Shown here: positions 29,010-40,299 of the stretch, in pieces | Layout: every line of letters starts with the position of its first letter | How positions within the stretch are numbered: the stretch's first letter is position 1 | Assembly: GCF_026319325.1 (NCBI RefSeq) | Contig: NZ_JAPDMU010000003.1 | Span: forward strand, 186,001-250,000 | Direction: 5' to 3' | DNA length: 64,000 nt | Origin: Methylophaga sp. OBS3 | Lineage (GTDB): Bacteria > Pseudomonadota > Gammaproteobacteria > Nitrosococcales > Methylophagaceae | The notes under the pieces: generated by a model | Database searches by the model: none | What the model saw: the letters and a program-made list of their open reading frames with translations, nothing else | What the model was told of the DNA's origin: nothing | Position numbers and translations under genes: made by a program

Positions 29010-30371
29010 TTACTTAATCCAAATTTGCTTGGCATTCACAAACTCTTTGATGCCATGAGGTCCTAGCTCACGGCCATAACCAGAGCCTTTTATACCGCCA
29101 CTTGGCAATCGTGGATCAGTTTTAACAATGCCATTAATGGCGACTTGGCCTGACTCTATCTGCATTGCTAATGACTCTGCTAGTTCCGCGTTTTCGGTCC
29201 AGACGCCCGCGCCCAAACCATACTCAGAGTCATTTGCCATTTCCAAAGCTTGGTCAACATCATCCGCTTTGATGAGTACCATAACAGGCCCAAAGGTTTC
29301 TTCTCGAAAGGCACACATGGTTGGCGTGACATCAGCCAATAACGTCACTGGATAGAAAAAACCATCTTCATCAGGCAAGTGACCGCCCAACAGGCATTTC
29401 GCGCCTGCCGCCACGGTATCTTCAACTTGGCGATGCAGATTTAATTGCAGATCTTCTCGCGCAATGGGACCAACATCCGTATTGGGCTGTAATGGATCGC
29501 CCAAAACCAGTTTTTCGAGGCGATCTTTAACCAGTTTCGTGAAACGATCATAAATTGGCTCGGCCACAATAACCCGCTTAGCTGCGATACATGATTGCCC
29601 GGCATTGATGATTCGCGATAAGCAAATTACATCGGCAGCTCGCTCTAAATCAGCATCCTCTAAAACCAAAACCGGATCTGAACCACCAAGCTCTAGCACA
29701 CAAGGCTTAATCTCACTGCCGGCAATGGCTGCAACTTTTTTTCCAGCACCACTAGAACCCGTAAAAGAAACTGCTGCAATACGCGGATCACGAATCGCCA
29801 ACTCCACCTCCGGCGTTTCTAGGGGTAAATTCACCATGATGTTATCGGGAGCACCTGCTTTTACAAACGCATTGGCGATTGCCTGTGCCGACTGTGGCAC
29901 ATTGGGATCATGTTTCATCACACAAGTATTACCGGCCATTAATGCCGGTGCCAAATAACGAAAGGCCAACCACAAGGGTGCATTCCACGGCAAAATACCA
30001 AGCAATGTACCTAATGGTTGGTAGGTCACATAGCTATGGCTTGCGTCAGAGGGCAGCGTTTCATCAGCCAGAAAACTTTCTGCTTTTTCCGCATAAAACT
30101 CAGCGCAACTTGCCGCCTTCTCGACTTCCGGTACACCCTCCTTAATTGGCTTTCCCATTTCCAATGCCATTAACTCAGCGATGTCATGCTTTTCGGCACG
30201 TAGTTGTTTGGCAATAGCCTTTAATACCTCGCCACGCTCAGTAAAAGTCTTATCACGCCATTCCGGAAATGCTGTCACCGCATCACCAATACGTGCATAC
30301 ATTTCATGTTTATCCAAAGCTGGAAAACGATCGATCTGTTGTCCGTTAAACGGATTGGTAGCTATCAGCAT
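29010..30371 (-). CDS. doeC: Aldehyde dehydrogenase, DoeC-type (aspartate-semialdehyde to aspartate)
   Basis: This 453-residue NAD(P)-dependent aldehyde dehydrogenase of the succinate-semialdehyde class has the cofactor motif SFTGSSGAGKKVA, catalytic Glu in CVLELGGSDP and catalytic Cys in NAGQSCIAAKR. Being the last gene of the doe operon, it most likely oxidises the L-aspartate semialdehyde made by the aminotransferase to L-aspartate, as shown for DoeC in Halomonas. By sequence alone it could equally be a Sad/GabD-type succinate semialdehyde dehydrogenase. AAGGA precedes the ATG, 8 bp after the doeA stop. Confidence 0.8.
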   Translation of the reverse strand: MLIATNPFNGQQIDRFPALDKHEMYARIGDAVTAFPEWRDKTFTERGEVLKAIAKQLRAEKHDIAELMALEMGKPIKEGVPEVEKAASCAEFYAEKAESFLADETLPSDASHSYVTYQPLGTLLGILPWNAPLWLAFRYLAPALMAGNTCVMKHDPNVPQSAQAIANAFVKAGAPDNIMVNLPLETPEVELAIRDPRIAAVSFTGSSGAGKKVAAIAGSEIKPCVLELGGSDPVLVLEDADLERAADVICLSRIINAGQSCIAAKRVIVAEPIYDRFTKLVKDRLEKLVLGDPLQPNTDVGPIAREDLQLNLHRQVEDTVAAGAKCLLGGHLPDEDGFFYPVTLLADVTPTMCAFREETFGPVMVLIKADDVDQALEMANDSEYGLGAGVWTENAELAESLAMQIESGQVAINGIVKTDPRLPSGGIKGSGYGRELGPHGIKEFVNAKQIWIK

Positions 30372-30379
30372 AAATATCC

Positions 30380-31636
30380 TTAGTGTGATTGTTTGGCAGT
30401 TGATTTTTTATCACTTTTACTCGCGTCACCTGACCGAGCACTATCCAAGCTGAGTAGTTTTTTGCCGCTGCTGCCAGGCTTAACGACAAAATCTCTATCC
30501 AGACTGAAGAAAGACTCACAGCCATTTTCAGTAATATGAATCGTATCGGAGATACCGCAGGTCTTATCCCCGTCTACACCCCACATCCAAGGAATGATAT
30601 GAAAAGTCATACCCGGTTTTAACACCGCCGACTCACCTTGCTTGAGACTAACGATATACCCCTCATCCCAACTCGGTGGGAAAGCAATACCAATGGAGTA
30701 ACCGGAACGAGTCACCAACCTCGCACCAATATCGTTTTTGGTAATGATATTTCGGATCATATTGTCGGCATCGGAGACCGTCATACCTGGCTGAAATTTA
30801 CTGTGTACCGCATCCAGCGCCATCTTCATAATTTCCTGGGCTTTGTACATTGATGGGCTGAGTTTACCGAGCACAACTGTCCGCATCATGGCTGTGTGAT
30901 AACGTCGGTAACAGCCCCCCACTTCAAGAAACACATGCTCATCAGGCTGCACAATTCGGCCTTCCCAAGTGGCATGACCAATCATGGTGCGTGGGCCAGA
31001 TGTCACATAAGGCATGACCGCCGGGGGTTCACCGCCAGCTTTGAACATTGCGGCGCTAATCGCAGCACCAATTTCATTTTCTGTGGCACCAGCTTCCGTT
31101 GCCTCAATACCAGCACTCATACCAGCTTCAGTGGCACGAGCCGCATTTTGCATCAAGGCGATTTCCATTGGTGACTTACAAACACGCCCCTCCTCGACAA
31201 TGCCAAAACAATCCAGCAATTTGCCATCGGTTAAGGTGGTATGAATGCAATCTTGATGGTAGGCCGGGAAGAAATAACTATTTCGCTCGTAACCAACCCG
31301 TTTGTTATCTAAACCAAACTCACGAAGCGCATCCACCAGCATTTGAATAGCATCCCCGGTATCTGGGTAAGGTCGTGTCACTTCAACCCAAGTTCGAGCA
31401 ATGACATTTGACTCTTCAAGCTTACGGGTAATCATGAAAGGCTCGTCTTCAAGCGGGACAACTAATGCCTGAAAAAATGAATATCCCGTGGTCTGATAGT
31501 CAGTCAGATACATGATGTTTTCCGGATCAGAAATCACCACTGCATCCATGCAACGCTCGGCAATCCGGTGACGCAATTCACTTAGTCGTCGCTCATATTC
31601 CTCAAAAGGAAATGTCATATCATCACGATGTCTCAT
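30380..31636 (-). CDS. doeA: Ectoine hydrolase (DoeA/EutD family, M24 fold)
   Basis: This 418-residue creatinase-fold protein of the M24 family matches DoeA/EutD, which opens the ectoine ring to N-acetyl-diaminobutyrate. Family-specific stretches are GCYRRYHTAMMRTV and GYSIGIAFPPSWDEG. Metal ligands of true M24 peptidases are changed: Glu238 sits in FLEVG where peptidases have Asp, and Ala249 where the second Asp belongs. This is expected for the ectoine branch and argues against a peptidase. A basic Lys/Ser tail of about 20 residues is extra. GGAGG lies 4 bp before the ATG, and the start overlaps the aminotransferase stop. Confidence 0.88.
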   Translation of the reverse strand: MRHRDDMTFPFEEYERRLSELRHRIAERCMDAVVISDPENIMYLTDYQTTGYSFFQALVVPLEDEPFMITRKLEESNVIARTWVEVTRPYPDTGDAIQMLVDALREFGLDNKRVGYERNSYFFPAYHQDCIHTTLTDGKLLDCFGIVEEGRVCKSPMEIALMQNAARATEAGMSAGIEATEAGATENEIGAAISAAMFKAGGEPPAVMPYVTSGPRTMIGHATWEGRIVQPDEHVFLEVGGCYRRYHTAMMRTVVLGKLSPSMYKAQEIMKMALDAVHSKFQPGMTVSDADNMIRNIITKNDIGARLVTRSGYSIGIAFPPSWDEGYIVSLKQGESAVLKPGMTFHIIPWMWGVDGDKTCGISDTIHITENGCESFFSLDRDFVVKPGSSGKKLLSLDSARSGDASKSDKKSTAKQSH

Positions 31637-32910
31637 GCGGCCTCCTGCATCATAACGTTGTCAGTGGCTTTGATGAGGATGTCTAAACCTTCCTCTAAAT
31701 CGGCTTTAGGTGTAGTTAAAGGCGGAATCAGTTTCACCACTCGGCCGCCAGTACCGCAACTGGCAATCATCAATCCGGAATCAAAACATTGGTCGACAAT
31801 TTTTTTAGCACGTTCACCACTGCCCACATCGAGACCAAGAATCATACCTTTGCCGGTCACATTTACCTGTGGATGACGATCAGCAAGCGGTCGTAAGGCA
31901 TCATTCATCATAGCGCCATGTTTTTTGACGGTTTGCATCAGCTCATCATCATCGAAATAACTTAGTGCCTGATCGCCAGCAACAAACGAAATATCTTGGC
32001 CTCGGAAAGTACCGGTATGCTCCCCCGGCGACCAATGTTTATCGTATTCGGGTTTAACCAGATTCATTGCCATGGGTGTACCCAAACCACCAATACCTTT
32101 AGCCAAACAAATGATGTCAGGCTCGATACCCAAATCATCAAAACTGAAAAAAGAACCTGTTCGGCCAACACCGACCTGAATATCATCAACAATCAATAAA
32201 GCACCAACGTCTTTGGCTAGTTTCGCCAAGGCCAAAAGCCAGTCTTTATCGGCAACTTTAACGCCGCCTTCAGCTTGAATTGTTTCCAATAAGAATGCCG
32301 CAGGTGGTGCAATACCACTTGAGCTATCAGCGTAAATTGCCCGCATTTGGTTGATGCTATCTTTACCGCAGCCTAACTCGCAGCCCGGACAGGTTTCACC
32401 ACAACCAAATGGGAAGTGTTTGACGTGTGTTAATGGCACCCCGGCAGCGTTACGAAAATATTGGTTAGCAGTTGCACTCAGCGCACCGAGGGTCATGCCA
32501 TGAAAGCCATGGCTGAAAGCGACAATATCTTGTCTGCCTGTTGCACGACGTGCCAACTTCATTGCTGCTTCCACCGCATTGGTCCCAGTCGGCCCCATAA
32601 ATTGCATTTTGTGAGGCATATTGCGCGGCTTGAGAATCGTTTCCGTGAAATGCTCCATAAACTGGCGTTTGGCAGTGGTATGCATATCAAGGCTATGTGT
32701 GACGCCGTTAGACTGAATATAGTCAATAACTGCATCTTTCATTCGTTGATTATTGTGACCAAAGTTCAACACACCAGCCCCCGCAAAGAAGTCGATATAT
32801 TCACGACCATTTTCATCGGTTTGCCGGGCGTTTAACGCCTTATCAAATACCACTGGATACACTCGACAGTAAGCACGAATTGCCGATTCTCGCTGTTCAA
32901 ATATGCTCAT
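31633..32910 (-). CDS. doeD: Diaminobutyrate transaminase, DoeD/EctB type, with 4-Cys insertion
   Basis: This 425-residue class III aminotransferase resembles EctB along its length (FFAGAGVLNFGHNN, MGPTGTNAVEAA, GFHGMTLGALSATAN). PLP Lys is 271 in CLAKGIGGLG, with Asp242 in VDDIQVGVGRTG. In this operon it should turn L-2,4-diaminobutyrate into aspartate semialdehyde, the reverse of the EctB step. Unusual is a loop at residues 168-183 with Cys170, 174, 177 and 181 (CX3CX2CX3C), where Halomonas EctB as I remember it has no such cluster. GGAG precedes the ATG. It could instead be a second EctB, but ectA and ectC are absent here. Confidence 0.82.
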   Translation of the reverse strand: MSIFEQRESAIRAYCRVYPVVFDKALNARQTDENGREYIDFFAGAGVLNFGHNNQRMKDAVIDYIQSNGVTHSLDMHTTAKRQFMEHFTETILKPRNMPHKMQFMGPTGTNAVEAAMKLARRATGRQDIVAFSHGFHGMTLGALSATANQYFRNAAGVPLTHVKHFPFGCGETCPGCELGCGKDSINQMRAIYADSSSGIAPPAAFLLETIQAEGGVKVADKDWLLALAKLAKDVGALLIVDDIQVGVGRTGSFFSFDDLGIEPDIICLAKGIGGLGTPMAMNLVKPEYDKHWSPGEHTGTFRGQDISFVAGDQALSYFDDDELMQTVKKHGAMMNDALRPLADRHPQVNVTGKGMILGLDVGSGERAKKIVDQCFDSGLMIASCGTGGRVVKLIPPLTTPKADLEEGLDILIKATDNVMMQEAA

Positions 32911-32927
32911 CTAGATCTCCTAACGGT

Positions 32928-34112
32928 TTACGTCTTGCCGACGTGGGATAGTTCCTCCGGAACAGGTGCGCCTGAAAGACGCGAAAACAGTGCCATGACC
33001 AATGGGATCAATCGGTCGTTAAAATCGTAATGGGCGCTATGACAAGGTGCCTGATGCTCAGGCCCATCATCACTACCAATCAAAGCAAAAGCGCCAGGAA
33101 TCTCTTGCAGGTAATAACTAAAATCTTCCGATGCCATGATCGGTAAGCGAATATCGGTATGCAGACTGCCGAGGCCAAACAAGGATTGCCAATGTTCACG
33201 AATAAGTGATGCCTGCATAGGATGGTTTATGGTCGCCTCGTAACGTGGCCAGATTTGTACATCACATTCAACACCGTAACTTGCTGCTGTTTGTTGGCTG
33301 ACCTCAATAATCAGCTGATTGAGTTCGGCTCTGGTCGCTTTATCAGGTACCCGAATACTGCCACCGATAGTTGCTTGTTCAGGAATAACGGTTGGGGCAC
33401 TTGGCGCCTCAATTGAAGTAACACTTAATACCGCCGCTTGTTGAGGTGCTAGTCGGCGGCTAATGATTTGCTGCAAATTTAAGGTAATGGCACTGGCTGC
33501 GAGAACCGGGTCTCGACATAACTCAGGTTGACTGGCATGACCACCACGGCCTTTCACCACAATCTCGAAAGTGCCGTTACCACACATGACAATCTCATCA
33601 GGACAAACGAGTTTCCCAAAAGGAATCGCTGGCCAGTTATGCCAACCAAATATGGCATCCACGCCCTCCAAAGCGCCATCAGCAATCATCTCTCTGGCAC
33701 CATGGCCACCTTCCTCAGCAGGTTGGAATATCAACGTAACTGGGCCTGGTAATAAATCTTCGTGATATTTGAGCCAACGCGCCGCCGCCAGCAAAGTCGC
33801 GGCATGACCATCATGCCCACAGGCATGCATACATCCAAGGTTTTCTGATGACCATTCTTTTTGGGTATTTTCTATGATGGGTAAAGCATCAATATCACCG
33901 CGAAGAGCGATAGTTGGACCTTTACCTGCTGGATTAAGCCATGCCAATGTGCCTGTGCCCGCACACGAACGCCAAGCAATATTCAGCGTACTAAGCGTAT
34001 CGCGAATACGTTCTGCGGTCCGATACTCCTGCCAGCCCAACTCAGGATGCGCGTGTAAATCACGGCGTAACACTTCAGCGTTGGTGATGGTTTCCTGCCA
34101 GACATCTGACAT
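32928..34112 (-). CDS. doeB2: M20 amidohydrolase, probable N-acetyl-diaminobutyrate deacetylase (DoeB2-type)
   Basis: This 394-residue M20 metal amidohydrolase has the metal motifs LRGDIDALPI, MHACGHDGHAATLL, FQPAEEGGHGA and the late His in PCHSAHYDFND, all intact. It is the first gene of the ectoine operon and should remove acetate from N-acetyl-L-2,4-diaminobutyrate. In Halomonas this step is done by DoeB of the unrelated AstE/AspA family; the M20 type is an alternative found in other ectoine clusters. Sequence alone would also allow an N-acyl amino acid or hippurate hydrolase. GGGGAGG lies just ahead of the ATG. Confidence 0.78.
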   Translation of the reverse strand: MSDVWQETITNAEVLRRDLHAHPELGWQEYRTAERIRDTLSTLNIAWRSCAGTGTLAWLNPAGKGPTIALRGDIDALPIIENTQKEWSSENLGCMHACGHDGHAATLLAAARWLKYHEDLLPGPVTLIFQPAEEGGHGAREMIADGALEGVDAIFGWHNWPAIPFGKLVCPDEIVMCGNGTFEIVVKGRGGHASQPELCRDPVLAASAITLNLQQIISRRLAPQQAAVLSVTSIEAPSAPTVIPEQATIGGSIRVPDKATRAELNQLIIEVSQQTAASYGVECDVQIWPRYEATINHPMQASLIREHWQSLFGLGSLHTDIRLPIMASEDFSYYLQEIPGAFALIGSDDGPEHQAPCHSAHYDFNDRLIPLVMALFSRLSGAPVPEELSHVGKT

Positions 34113-35170: not shown

Positions 35171-35316
35171 AACTACCTCTCGTCTTATTGACCTTGGTGC
35201 CTCCCAACGTTATCAATTTAACCGTGACAGGCATAGTGCTGTTGCCATTAATCACCGGCTAACACCTTATTTGTATTATCATATTGGGTCGAATGTTTTC
35301 GTTAACAGGATCACGC

Positions 35317-35958
35317 ATGAGCACTGTATTGAATTTAGCTGCTTTACAAGCAGCACCGGTACAAACAGACCCATTTCCATTTTTCACGGTGGAACGCTCA
35401 ATTGATGACGTTATGTTGTCTCGCGTATTAACTGATTTCCCAGACATCGGTGATGGTGGCAGCTTTAATGTTGATGACGTCTCAGTTAAAGATGACTTCA
35501 AAGCGTTTTTGGACTCGATTGATAGCCCAGCATTTCGTCAAATCATCTGCGATAAATTTGATGTTGAAGTCATGGATCTGCCCATGATGATGACCTTACG
35601 TGGTTATTCGCGTAAGAAAGATGGCCGTATTCATACTGATTCAAAAACCAAGTTGGTCACCATTTTGATTTATTTAAATGAATCTTGGCCAGCAAGTAAT
35701 GGGCGCCTGCGTATTTTGCGTGATGGCCAAGATCTCGAAAACTATGTTGCTGAAATTGCGCCAGGCCCGGGTTCTTTAGTTGCTTTCAAAGTCACTGATA
35801 ATTGCTGGCATGGTTATCCATTTTACGAAGGCACACGCCGCTCGATTCAAATCAACTTTTTGACCAGTGAAGCAGCTAATAATAAACACCGCTTTTTCCA
35901 TAAGCTGAGTGCCAAATTAAAAGGCTGGTTGCGTCGACGTAAAGTTAAAGCGGCATAA
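35317..35958 (+). CDS. 2OG-Fe(II) oxygenase
   Basis: This 213-residue dioxygenase has the start at the ATG at 35317, where AGGA lies six bases upstream; an in-frame TTG at 35284 would add 11 residues. The iron facial triad reads His-x-Asp in GRIHTDSKTKLV and a distal His in NCWHGYPFYEGTRRSIQINF, with Arg for 2-oxoglutarate in the same stretch. It resembles prolyl-hydroxylase-like (Tpa1/P4H-type) enzymes. A basic tail (KLKGWLRRRKVK) ends it. The substrate is unknown. Its stop overlaps the DUF202 start (TAATG). Confidence 0.8.
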   Translation: MSTVLNLAALQAAPVQTDPFPFFTVERSIDDVMLSRVLTDFPDIGDGGSFNVDDVSVKDDFKAFLDSIDSPAFRQIICDKFDVEVMDLPMMMTLRGYSRKKDGRIHTDSKTKLVTILIYLNESWPASNGRLRILRDGQDLENYVAEIAPGPGSLVAFKVTDNCWHGYPFYEGTRRSIQINFLTSEAANNKHRFFHKLSAKLKGWLRRRKVKAA

Positions 35959-36326
35959 TGTCTTCACTTCAAGATCCGCGGGTTTTATTTGCGGCTGAAA
36001 GAACGTTATTAGCCTGGATACGCACCAGTCTGACATTTATTATGTTTGGTTTTCTGATAGAGCGTTCGGGATTACTGCTGGAAATTCTCTCGACAAACCA
36101 AACCATGTTAAACACTGAGCTTACTTTTTGGTTAGGCTTGGCCTTTATTGTTCTGGGTGTTTTTTCGGGTCTCTATGCTGGCAATCAGTATCGAAATGTA
36201 CTGAAAACATTAAATGCTGCGGAATTTCCTGAAGGCTATCGCAGCCACTGGGGTATTTGGATCAGTATGATCGTTGCCGTGTTAGGTAGTGCACTCGCAG
36301 CTTGTTTATTGTTTAGCTATCACTGA
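35958..36326 (+). CDS. DUF202 (YidH-type) membrane protein
   Basis: This 122-residue protein has three transmembrane helices and the family opening DPRVLFAAERTLLAWIRTSL. Such proteins sit in the inner membrane and their function is unknown. Its ATG shares a base with the oxygenase stop codon, and an SMR transporter gene starts 8 bp after its stop, so the three are probably one transcript. Confidence 0.82.
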   Translation: MSSLQDPRVLFAAERTLLAWIRTSLTFIMFGFLIERSGLLLEILSTNQTMLNTELTFWLGLAFIVLGVFSGLYAGNQYRNVLKTLNAAEFPEGYRSHWGIWISMIVAVLGSALAACLLFSYH

Positions 36327-36334
36327 GTGACAAC

Positions 36335-36667
36335 ATGACTAAATGGTTATTTCTAAGTGCCGCAATTATTGCTGAAGTGTTTGGCACTAGCTTTTTAAAA
36401 GCCTCTGAAGGCTTTACCAAATTTTGGCCGTCTGTGGCGGTCGTGGTTGGTTATGTTGCGGCCTTTTACTTTTTATCATTAAGTTTGAAATTTATTCCGG
36501 TCGGCATTGCATATGCAATCTGGGCCGGTGTTGGCGTCGTACTTATCGCGCTAATTGGCTGGCTGGTATTTGGTCAACAACTGGACTTAGCCGCAATCAT
36601 TGGAATGGCACTTATTCTTGCTGGCGTAATCACACTAAATGTCTTTTCAGGCAGTGTTTCACACTAA
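36335..36667 (+). CDS. emrE: SMR-family small multidrug exporter
   Basis: This 110-residue protein has four transmembrane helices and the essential Glu14 in IIAEVFGTSFLKASEGF, plus GIAYAIWAGVGVVL in helix 3. All are hallmarks of the EmrE/Qac branch of SMR proton antiporters, which work as antiparallel dimers and export cationic compounds such as quaternary amines. The SugE/Gdx (guanidinium) branch is less likely. The EmrE symbol is by similarity only. Confidence 0.85.
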   Translation: MTKWLFLSAAIIAEVFGTSFLKASEGFTKFWPSVAVVVGYVAAFYFLSLSLKFIPVGIAYAIWAGVGVVLIALIGWLVFGQQLDLAAIIGMALILAGVITLNVFSGSVSH

Positions 36668-36695: not shown

Positions 36696-38951
36696 ATGCA
36701 GCAAAACACCGAAAATCAAAGCGACTATGTGAATGGCCCGCTGATGGATATCAGCCAACTTCGTCATGCAATTAAGTATGTTCTGAAAGGCCGCTTAGCA
36801 TTACCAGGTGGACACTTACCGCCAGCAGCACACCAAGTGCCAGAAGACTTTATCGGTGTTGGTTTGTCGACCGGTGAAGATCCTGCCATTGATGACTATA
36901 TTTTGGCTAAGCTTGCCGAGCTTAATCTTAAACAAGTGCGTGTTGATTTCACTTATGACGATTTGGATGCGCCTGTCAGCCGTTTATTAGAAAAACTCCT
37001 GACAGCCAAAATCAATGTTTTGCTGCATCTGGTCCAACCATTTAAAGAAGCACAACAAATGAAAACCGCTGAAGCGCAGCAACGCTGGCAGCAGTTTTTA
37101 GAAGAAGTGGTTAAACGATTTGGCCATCGTGTTAAAGCTATCGAAATTGGTGCCACCAGTAACCGTCGACATTGGTCTGGTTATGATAAAGAAAGCTTCT
37201 ATAATGCCTGGCACATTGCCTATGAGCTGCTGAAAGCTGAGCGTATTACTATTGCTGGCCCAAATATTTCAGACTTTGAGCCATTGCATAACATTGCTGC
37301 CCTTGCGAAGTTAAATCGCGACCAAGAGCTACCGGATATTCATACCAATAATCTTTTTAGTGAGCGTGTCACTGAGCCAGAACGCTACGACCACCGAATT
37401 TTTGGTACACAACTGGCACTGAAACTCAAAGTAAATCTAGTCAAAAAAGCCAGATTACTTCGTAAAATTACTGATGATTTTGGCGTAAAAAACTTTATGT
37501 CACCGGCAGCATTTTGGACGCTGCCACGCATTGAACGTCGTTTGGTTGCTATTGAAGATAAACAAGCAGACTACCTCACCCGTTATTTCACCTTGTTGGC
37601 CGCCTCAGGCACCATGCAACAAGCTTTTTGGGGCCCATTTTTATGTAGCCGCGAAGGTTTAGTGGATGATGGCAGTGGCATTTACCCAAAACTAGAACGT
37701 ATCACCCATTATCGTTCGGTTATCGGCCAGCGCATTGATTTTCGTGAACGTCCGGCATTTTATGCATTCCAACAGTTCAACAAACTGATTCCAGGTAGTT
37801 TTTATCAAGGCGCACTAGCAACAACCGAAGATTTAGAAGTTCATGCCTTTCGCCGTCAGGATGGTTTGGTCCATGTCGCTTGGACTATCAATGGCAAAGC
37901 CATGGCATTGAATAAACTTTATGACCCGACAACGCTTGCTAAAGCGACCTGCTTTAGTCGTGATGGTGAGTTGTTAGCCGAAACACCAGAGTTTGCCGGT
38001 GAATCACCTGTCTATCTACGTTGGCCAGCAGGCACATTGGTTAGTTTTAACAACGAACCGACCAAAAACATGGATGCTTGGCATCGATATATGCCGGATA
38101 AAAGCTTGTATCAATTTGAACAAGACGGTTGGCGCGGTCTACTACTTGCAGACAATGCCGAAATGGCGAATGAACTGCGTGAAAAGTTACATCCACAACG
38201 ACTGCCGGAACCAACGCCTGACAACACGCTGCGTAAAGCCAGAAATGTGATCTGGCGTATTACGGATTTACTCAAACAGCCATTTGTTGCCAAAAAACCG
38301 CTGAAAATGCATCCCCATAAACGTTTGCTCGATCGCAATCGTCCTTGCAAAGCAAAACGTAGCTGGATTGGCGCTGCCGAATTATTACGTCGTGGTATTC
38401 CGACCGCACGCCCTATCGCTTACTTTGAGAAGTTAAACGATAAGAGTTTGCTGAATAACTATTACCTATGTGAACAGGTTGATCATGACTTTAGTGCCCG
38501 TGAAATGGTCACCGCTTTCCGTGATGGCGCCCTTAGTTTCGAGGGCGTGAGCGATACCGAGGCATACCAGCAACTCGCTGTATTTTTAAACGAAATGCAT
38601 GCTCGTGGCGTATTTTTCCGAGATCTTGCTGGTGGCAATATCTTGATTAAAAAGCAGCCTGACGAATCATTAGCGTTTACGCTGATTGATATTAACCGTG
38701 CTCGTTTCTTCAATCGCAACTTAACACTAGCGGAGCGTTTGTCAGATATGGCGCGTATTTGCCATAAATTGCATTGGGCGGGACGTGAACAGCTTATGGC
38801 GGCTTATTTGTCCCATACCCGAAAATTTGGCAAAAAATTCAATTGGCGGAAAAAAATACCTTTTTATTTGTACGATTTTAAAGTGAACTTTAAGCGTAAA
38901 TACGGTCGCAAAGCGATCCGTAAATGGTGGCAAGGCCGTAAAAATGGCTAA
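36696..38951 (+). CDS. Fusion of a degenerate glycosidase-like barrel and an InaA/Kdo-type kinase
   Basis: This 751-residue protein has no signal peptide. Residues about 45-420 look like a clan GH-A TIM barrel (FIGVGLSTGEDP, LKQVRVDFTYDD, VKAIEIGATSNRRHW, ITIAGPNISDFEP). At 149-160 the usual N-E-P acid/base motif is replaced by G-A-T-S-N, so hydrolase activity is doubtful. Residues about 535-751 are an LPS-kinase fold: GAAELLRRGIPTARPIAYFE, catalytic loop FFRDLAGGNIL with Asp643, and the metal Asp in LIDINRARF. The extreme C-terminus is very basic, suggesting membrane or LPS-precursor contact. The likely role is phosphorylation of a surface sugar. Confidence 0.7.
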   Translation: MQQNTENQSDYVNGPLMDISQLRHAIKYVLKGRLALPGGHLPPAAHQVPEDFIGVGLSTGEDPAIDDYILAKLAELNLKQVRVDFTYDDLDAPVSRLLEKLLTAKINVLLHLVQPFKEAQQMKTAEAQQRWQQFLEEVVKRFGHRVKAIEIGATSNRRHWSGYDKESFYNAWHIAYELLKAERITIAGPNISDFEPLHNIAALAKLNRDQELPDIHTNNLFSERVTEPERYDHRIFGTQLALKLKVNLVKKARLLRKITDDFGVKNFMSPAAFWTLPRIERRLVAIEDKQADYLTRYFTLLAASGTMQQAFWGPFLCSREGLVDDGSGIYPKLERITHYRSVIGQRIDFRERPAFYAFQQFNKLIPGSFYQGALATTEDLEVHAFRRQDGLVHVAWTINGKAMALNKLYDPTTLAKATCFSRDGELLAETPEFAGESPVYLRWPAGTLVSFNNEPTKNMDAWHRYMPDKSLYQFEQDGWRGLLLADNAEMANELREKLHPQRLPEPTPDNTLRKARNVIWRITDLLKQPFVAKKPLKMHPHKRLLDRNRPCKAKRSWIGAAELLRRGIPTARPIAYFEKLNDKSLLNNYYLCEQVDHDFSAREMVTAFRDGALSFEGVSDTEAYQQLAVFLNEMHARGVFFRDLAGGNILIKKQPDESLAFTLIDINRARFFNRNLTLAERLSDMARICHKLHWAGREQLMAAYLSHTRKFGKKFNWRKKIPFYLYDFKVNFKRKYGRKAIRKWWQGRKNG

Positions 38952-39011
38952 AAACTAGCCGACAACTTTTTAACGGCGTAAATTGTCTTCATAGCCATTA
39001 GGGGTGTGCGC

Positions 39012-39257
39012 ATGAGCTATGACAATTTACAAAGTTTACTGGGCTGGTCAGCGCTGATTAACATTTTGTTACTCACGATTTGGTTTGTCATGTTTTGTTG
39101 TTACGCTGACAAAATTTATCGATTACACAGCCGTTGGTTTTCATTATCTGAGTCACAATTTGCCTGCATTCACTACAGCGGGATGGCAATACTCAAGATA
39201 TTGAACTTTATGTTTTTTGTAGCGCCATGGTTGGCAATGAAAATTATTAGTGGTTAG
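39012..39257 (+). CDS. DUF6868-type small membrane protein
   Basis: This 81-residue protein starts at the ATG at 39012 (AGGGG seven bases upstream; an in-frame GTG is at 39006). It has two hydrophobic helices joined by the conserved block IYRLHSRWFSLSESQFACIH followed by YSGMAILK. I recall this pattern from small proteins of Vibrio and Pseudomonas labelled DUF6868; the function is unknown. The next gene begins 4 bp after its stop. Confidence 0.7.
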   Translation: MSYDNLQSLLGWSALINILLLTIWFVMFCCYADKIYRLHSRWFSLSESQFACIHYSGMAILKILNFMFFVAPWLAMKIISG

Positions 39258-39261
39258 ACGT

Positions 39262-40299
39262 ATGACTTTTTGGCTGAAATTAACGGCCCTAGTTTTTGTG
39301 GGTTGGATGTTAACAAGCTGTCAGTCAGACGATGGTGACGATGATATTCTTGATTGGCGCGCTTCGGTAAGCTTCCCAGCTAGTTATAGTGGCACATTGC
39401 CTTGTGCTGATTGTCCGGGCATTGATTACCGTTTAAACCTGTTTGCCGATCACTCTTTTTTCTTACAAACGGAATACCAAGAGCGTTCGGTAACACCAAG
39501 TTTCACGCTCGGTCATTGGCAGTTACATAACCAAAATACCTTGGTTTTATTAAGCGATGTACAAAACTACCGCTTTGCTATCAATGATCAACGTCATCTC
39601 ACCCTGCTCAACCAGCAAGGCCAGTTGATAAATAGTGAACTCAATTATCAACTAAACCAAGACAAAACCTATCGAGCAATTTATCCAGCGTTACCAATGC
39701 GTGGTCTTTATCGTGAAGATGCAGAAGGTGGCTATTTTAATGAGTGCTTAACAGGTCAGAGCTGGGCTATTGCTGATATTGCAGATTATGAAGCATTAAA
39801 AACGCGTTATAACGAACTTAACCAAGACAATGACACTGCTCTTTTAGTCACCTTAAATGGCGCATTGTTAGCTAGTAGCGGTAAATTAAAAGTCAGCTCC
39901 TTCACCGGTATTTGGCCAGGTGAAACCTGTGGTCAACCTGGCTATAGTGAAAGTTTGTTAGATACCTACTGGAAACTTACTCGGCTGCATAATCAGCCAG
40001 TTATCATCACTGATGGTCAGCGCGAACCCAGTCTAATAATGGCTAGCGGCGATGATCCCAAAGTCACTGGTTACGATGGCTGCAACCGTCTTATGGGAAG
40101 CTTCTATCTGAAAGCCAATACACTGAAGTTTCGGAAAATGGCCAGTACCATGATGGCTTGTGAAAACAGTATGGAAACAGCACAACGTTTTCATGAAGCA
40201 CTCGAAGTTGTTCATATGTGGCACATCAAAGGCCAAAATCTAGAACTCTCTGACAAAGATGGTAATACCCTCGCCCGCTTCCAAGCTGTGCATTTGTGA
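39262..40299 (+). CDS. Lipoprotein with NlpE-like and META domains
   Basis: This protein of about 345 residues has a lipoprotein signal, VGWMLTSC, with Cys at about residue 20. The N-terminal domain (about 35-120) matches NlpE_N, with SYSGTLPCADCPGIDYRLNL including its CxxC motif. A middle segment of unclear type follows, then a META domain (about 235-345): LDTYWKLTRLHNQPV, GYDGCNRLMGSFYL and TMMACE. NlpE senses surface contact and copper stress in E. coli, and META proteins are often outer-membrane lipoproteins such as HslJ. An in-frame GTG at 39250 is an alternative start. The stop shares bases with the next ATG. Confidence 0.78.
   Translation: MTFWLKLTALVFVGWMLTSCQSDDGDDDILDWRASVSFPASYSGTLPCADCPGIDYRLNLFADHSFFLQTEYQERSVTPSFTLGHWQLHNQNTLVLLSDVQNYRFAINDQRHLTLLNQQGQLINSELNYQLNQDKTYRAIYPALPMRGLYREDAEGGYFNECLTGQSWAIADIADYEALKTRYNELNQDNDTALLVTLNGALLASSGKLKVSSFTGIWPGETCGQPGYSESLLDTYWKLTRLHNQPVIITDGQREPSLIMASGDDPKVTGYDGCNRLMGSFYLKANTLKFRKMASTMMACENSMETAQRFHEALEVVHMWHIKGQNLELSDKDGNTLARFQAVHL

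Follow-up and report, generated by a model that had tools for sequence, protein, structure and literature searches.

A conserved fusion of a degenerate GH39-like barrel with a WaaP/InaA-like kinase in Methylophaga and other bacteria

A 751-residue protein of Methylophaga was found to join a GH39-like pseudo-glycosidase to a WaaP/InaA-like kinase. Its gene (P0001) lies at 36696-38951 on the + strand of the 64,000-nucleotide stretch of DNA analyzed here (the window) and is read as 751 codons from an ATG start without internal stops; the antisense reading across it is stop-rich. Full-length homologues with 34-66% identity occur in many genera, and therefore the reading frame is not a chance one and the fusion of barrel and kinase in one protein, as proposed in the preliminary description, is borne out. 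We conclude that the fusion is a real, conserved and apparently undescribed domain architecture with a kinase half of known kind; no literature describing it was found in a search that had most subscription journals outside its coverage. In the explanation we favor, which we consider fairly probable, the protein is an LPS-core kinase of the WaaP/InaA type at the cytosolic face of the inner membrane, and its dead GH39/PslG-like barrel serves as a substrate-recognition module. How LPS-core kinases pick one sugar hydroxyl is, to our knowledge, unclear. A kinase that occurs widely and carries a dead glycosidase in the same chain would give a concrete example, open to experiment, of a glycosidase fold put to new use in reading a substrate, and outer-membrane integrity in Pseudomonas requires core phosphorylation (PMC6147952).

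The whole protein was modeled by AlphaFold2 with 17 homologues in the input (pLDDT 85, pTM 0.85). Two domains are present as described earlier, but their limits were revised from 45-420 and 535-751 to about 40-445 and 455-735. By structure match and hhalign, residues 40-445 (36813-38030, + strand) form a degenerate GH39/PslG-like (beta/alpha)8 barrel with a C-terminal beta-sandwich. Residues 455-735 (38058-38900, + strand) form the Kdo/WaaP-family kinase domain, which contains K533, E562, R642, D643, N648 and D665. The C-terminal residues 702-751 (38799-38948, + strand) are predicted to be helical and are strongly basic, which makes them a candidate membrane-binding tail; the net charge of the last 50 residues is +16, and the tail is positive in nearly all fusions. 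A hydropathy scan gave no evident membrane span or signal peptide (best 19-residue window, 0.92), in agreement with the earlier claim that an export signal is absent.

When the barrel was searched as a single sequence, neither Pfam nor PDB returned a glycosidase, and none of 47 barrels matched PF01229, the GH39 model of Pfam; the likeness to GH39 emerges only through structure and profiles. In the predicted model, residues 40-444 matched 5jvk (GH39) with a Z score of 30.8 (rmsd 2.9, 349 residues). The same residues, barrel and beta-sandwich together, resemble PslG, the GH39 endoglycosidase of Pseudomonas aeruginosa (5bx9, 9g17), with a Z score of 28.4 against 9g17 (rmsd 3.0, 349 residues, predicted model). 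The GH-A-like TIM barrel proposed earlier thus stands as a glycosidase-type barrel and is narrowed to a GH39/PslG-like one (Z 28-31). An hhalign comparison of the 47 barrels with two intact GH39 proteins gave an E value of 8e-12. In this profile-profile alignment, for which the two proteins, from a PF01229 search of the class genomes, were the only reference for active-site mapping, N-E-P-N of intact GH39 aligns to A153-T154-S155-N156 and the nucleophile motif T-E-S-G-W aligns to P270-A271-A272-F273-W274. Thus the acid/base Glu falls on T154 in GATSN (residues 152-156, 37149-37163, + strand) and the beta7 nucleophile Glu on A271 in SPAAFW (residues 269-274, 37500-37517, + strand). A separate weak PslG profile match places STEWGW on SPAAFW, with the nucleophile column as in the GH39 alignment. 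The key residues of PslG are E165 and E276 (PMC9075953); in the fusion the equivalents of both are replaced, a kinase is attached and no export signal is seen.

In the alignment of 82 fusions, 80 have Thr at position 154, one has Ala and one has Val, and the residue at position 271 varies among Ala, Ser, Tyr, Thr, Val, Asn and Cys; Glu occurs at neither. The preliminary description was therefore right about the lost acid/base site, and the loss of the nucleophile goes beyond what it had reported. We also looked for an active glycosidase among the relatives, which would speak against a dead barrel, and the catalytic pair was intact in none of the homologues found. Because the barrel has the GH39 fold but lacks the acid/base Glu, the nucleophile Glu and a PF01229 match, glycosidase would be the wrong name for it.

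The catalytically dead barrel is not decaying, and purifying selection on it is as strong as on the kinase. Of eight close pairs, seven gave a dN/dS of 0.02-0.07 for the barrel and one gave 0.21, and the barrel value was lower than that of the kinase in seven of the eight. The catalytic face of the barrel holds more than its share of residues conserved at 98% or more (21 of 104, versus 19 of 213; one-sided Fisher P = 0.005), and at a 95% threshold the enrichment has P = 0.04; the face was delimited from predicted strands, so the test is approximate. T-x-N-R-x-x-W, D-F-E and N-L-F-x-E-R are family signatures of the barrel. All five aligned standalone barrels have D193, F194 and E195, as do 99-100% of fusions, and E223, R224, E229, D232 and R319 are invariant across fusions. 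Outside the cleft sit 31 positions conserved at 95% or more. A conserved cleft is not in itself proof of sugar binding.

The kinase is the only Pfam domain of the protein (PF06293, Kdo/WaaP; 31.1 bits against a cut-off of 21.3, and 33.5 bits in the genome search). Modeled alone with 42 homologues, the kinase region reached a pLDDT of 94.5. Its best fold match is WaaP (6dfl; Z 16.3, rmsd 4.3, 230 residues, predicted model), which human PRPK equals at Z 16.0, so the fold by itself does not establish a sugar kinase; the profile match to 6dfl has an E value of 1.3e-7. WaaP is a cytosolic kinase that phosphorylates heptose I, with K51, E78, HRD and D188 as key kinase residues (PMC6147952). K533, D643 and D665 of the fusion correspond to K51, D163 and D188 of WaaP. 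The kinase motifs are intact, as had been claimed: K533 is conserved in 81 of 82 fusions, D643 of FFRDLAGGN in 81 of 82, N648 of the same motif in 80-81, and D665 of LIDINRAR in 80 of 81. The HRD-His position is Phe in 72 of the 82 fusions and His in 10. With the strict NCBIfam equivalogs, the Kdo kinase model gave 23.3 bits against a cut-off of 142, and RfaP was not among the matches listed. The protein is thus a member of the broad Pfam Kdo/WaaP kinase family that fails the strict RfaP and Kdo-kinase cut-offs. It shares with the heptose I kinase WaaP/RfaP and with PF06293 the kinase fold, the catalytic Lys and Asp and the metal-binding Asp, and like WaaP/RfaP it has no export signal and its homologues adjoin LPS-core genes. 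Unlike WaaP/RfaP, it has about 445 additional residues at the N-terminus, which form the barrel and beta-sandwich, as well as basic C-terminal helices, mostly has FRD instead of HRD, contains a GGN loop and scores below the equivalog cut-offs.

The LPS-core link claimed for the fusion in the preliminary description is supported by the neighborhoods of its homologues. At least one LPS-core marker gene (waaC, hldE, waaG-like, waaP-type, msbA, carbamoyltransferase or lptF) lay near the fusion in 39 of 80 loci, from the best 80 of 121 relatives; this count is descriptive and not a blind test, since the marker set was partly derived from the same loci. The gene maps were built greedily and may include spurious antisense reading frames. 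In Halopseudomonas pertucinogena (L098) the order is glnE, WaaC, fusion, GT1, WaaP-type, Kdo-type and carbamoyltransferase. Another locus (L119) has APH kinase, WaaC, HldE, fusion, a Kdo-family kinase of 752 aa and GT1, and Azonexus (L121) has two Kdo kinases (WaaP-type), MsbA, a small kinase, fusion and PIG-L. LptF follows the fusion in L120, and in Methylobacillus a phosphoglycerol-transferase-like gene of the sulfatase fold abuts it. The core locus of P. aeruginosa and P. syringae comprises hldE, msbA, kinase, PIG-L, wapO, PA5006, wapQ, wapP, waaP, wapG and waaC (PMC8005017), and genes found around the fusion in the homologue loci are also found in the published P. aeruginosa locus. The PA5006-type and tandem Kdo kinases of such loci resemble the fusion in combining an LPS-type kinase with an extra part; they have no GH39-like barrel, and the kinase similarity is only remote.

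In the window itself, the fusion is preceded on the + strand by genes for a 2OG-Fe(II) oxygenase (35284-35958, PF13640), a DUF202 membrane protein (35958-36326), which is a same-strand neighbor in part of the genus, and an SMR-family transporter (36335-36667) that ends 28 bp upstream; a DUF6868 small protein (39006-39257, + strand) lies directly downstream. A search of the 64-kb window gave no LPS-core marker. The LPS-core locus of this genome is on another contig and contains a heptosyltransferase, three other Kdo/WaaP-family genes, glycosyltransferases, a carbamoyltransferase and a YrbL-like gene. The earlier picture of an oxygenase, DUF202 and SMR group without glycosyltransferases therefore holds in Methylophaga, whereas elsewhere the fusion adjoins heptosyltransferase and other LPS-core genes. 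The oxygenase also adjoins the fusion in M. lonarensis (L048/L065), there without DUF202 and SMR, and lies downstream of it in the distant L117, where a carbamoyltransferase-like gene is adjacent too. These pairings suggest that the oxygenase and the fusion protein may have one glycan as their common target. The oxygenase is prolyl-hydroxylase-like, and comparison with solved structures gave hydroxylase entries only; a KdoO-like role was considered for it and not adopted. A literature search on the core LPS of Methylophaga returned nothing relevant. Further upstream, at 29010-34112 on the - strand, lie aldehyde dehydrogenase, M24 peptidase-like, class III aminotransferase and M20 amidohydrolase-like genes, a set that presumably resembles an ectoine-degradation (doe) cluster. 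A putative lipoprotein with NlpE N-terminal, NlpE OB and META domains is encoded at 39250-40299.

The kinase family and the genomic setting are well supported; for the barrel we infer a sugar-binding role, and the same grade applies to the kinase substrate, the ligand of the barrel, membrane attachment and timing before export. In the LPS-core-kinase explanation, the old active-site cleft of the barrel would hold the core-sugar segment of the lipid-A-linked core while the basic C-terminal helices keep the protein at the inner membrane. The kinase would then move the gamma-phosphate of ATP to a core hydroxyl, of heptose or another core sugar, before export by MsbA. Against this explanation count the position of the Methylophaga gene outside the LPS-core locus and the Phe at the HRD-His position in 72 of 82 fusions. 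The former, together with about half of the loci having no LPS-core marker nearby, would fit a kinase whose target is a capsule or exopolysaccharide precursor or a protein, with an incidental LPS neighborhood. The nearness of the kinase fold to PRPK/Bud32 and the part of PslG in exopolysaccharide synthesis (PMC6813494) point the same way. We nevertheless regard a target other than the LPS core as very unlikely, for the association with waaC, hldE, waaP-type and msbA genes recurs in several distant genera with differing gene orders.

The barrel itself might still be an enzyme with a relocated acid, for example in D193-F-E195 or at E223, that trims or transfers a core sugar which the protein also phosphorylates. 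The near-universal D193, F194 and E195 and the invariant E223, R224, E229, D232 and R319 could furnish such a site, and standalone barrels retain the beta7 Glu. However, no fusion retains either of the canonical residues, position 271 varies freely among A, S, Y, T, V, N and C, and loop 230-245 has low model confidence. E150 was considered as the relocated acid and rejected, since it matches a Glu beside N-E-P in both intact GH39 proteins. On balance an active barrel seems unlikely to us. We give a similarly low chance to a barrel that binds no sugar and acts as a protein-protein scaffold docking the kinase to other core-assembly enzymes. PslA, PslD and PslE reportedly anchor PslG (PMC9075953), and constraint does extend beyond the cleft to the 31 positions noted above, but the invariant, largely polar residues are enriched on the catalytic face, as ligand binding predicts. 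More speculatively, the protein could be a bifunctional core editor and kinase with a relocated-acid glycan site at D193/E195/E223, or the barrel could read the finished core and license its phosphorylation as quality control; we hold this pair of ideas possible, though rather improbable. We know of no quality-control step that licenses core phosphorylation in LPS synthesis.

The fusion is present in 19 of 22 other Methylophaga genomes. A sequence-pattern scan, which is biased to close relatives for that reason, covered 84,980 species genomes and confirmed 121 relatives. The best 80 come from Methylophaga, Porticoccus, Methylobacillus and other Methylophilaceae, Azonexus, Dechloromonas, Azoarcus, Thauera and Pseudomonadaceae, with a few Verrucomicrobia or Lentisphaerae MAGs whose assignments may be binning errors. 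Both parts were carried by every one of these 80 loci that was uninterrupted by a contig end. One copy, from a Methylophaga aminisulfidivorans MAG (HyVt-380; L020/L100), has one in-frame TAG on a short contig, which could reflect either a pseudogene or faulty assembly. A plasmid-borne origin of the fusion was considered and found no support, the single match being weak and confined to the kinase part.

The barrel occurred in 12 of 369 sampled class genomes, as five fusions and seven separate genes, and its distribution is thus patchy. The seven standalone genes (L029-L033, L139 and L140), from related bacteria, encode proteins of 362-546 aa without a kinase. We had looked for homologues with the two parts as separate genes, which would argue against a stable fusion; within the orthologous group no such case was found, and only these distant standalone barrels turned up. 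They share with the fusions the NR..W and DFE signatures and the missing acid/base Glu, having N-A or H-A at the N-E position of GH39 in all seven. Unlike the fusions, they are genes of their own and all seven keep the beta7 Glu in the motif [TS]-E-x-N-W-P (read by eye in L030, where the alignment is shifted). They constitute a half-dead GH39-like family, and these separate relatives may record an intermediate step. Most of them have housekeeping or peptidase genes of no evident relation as neighbors, whereas one comes directly after two Wzy_C O-antigen-ligase-like genes (L123, 2678-6912).
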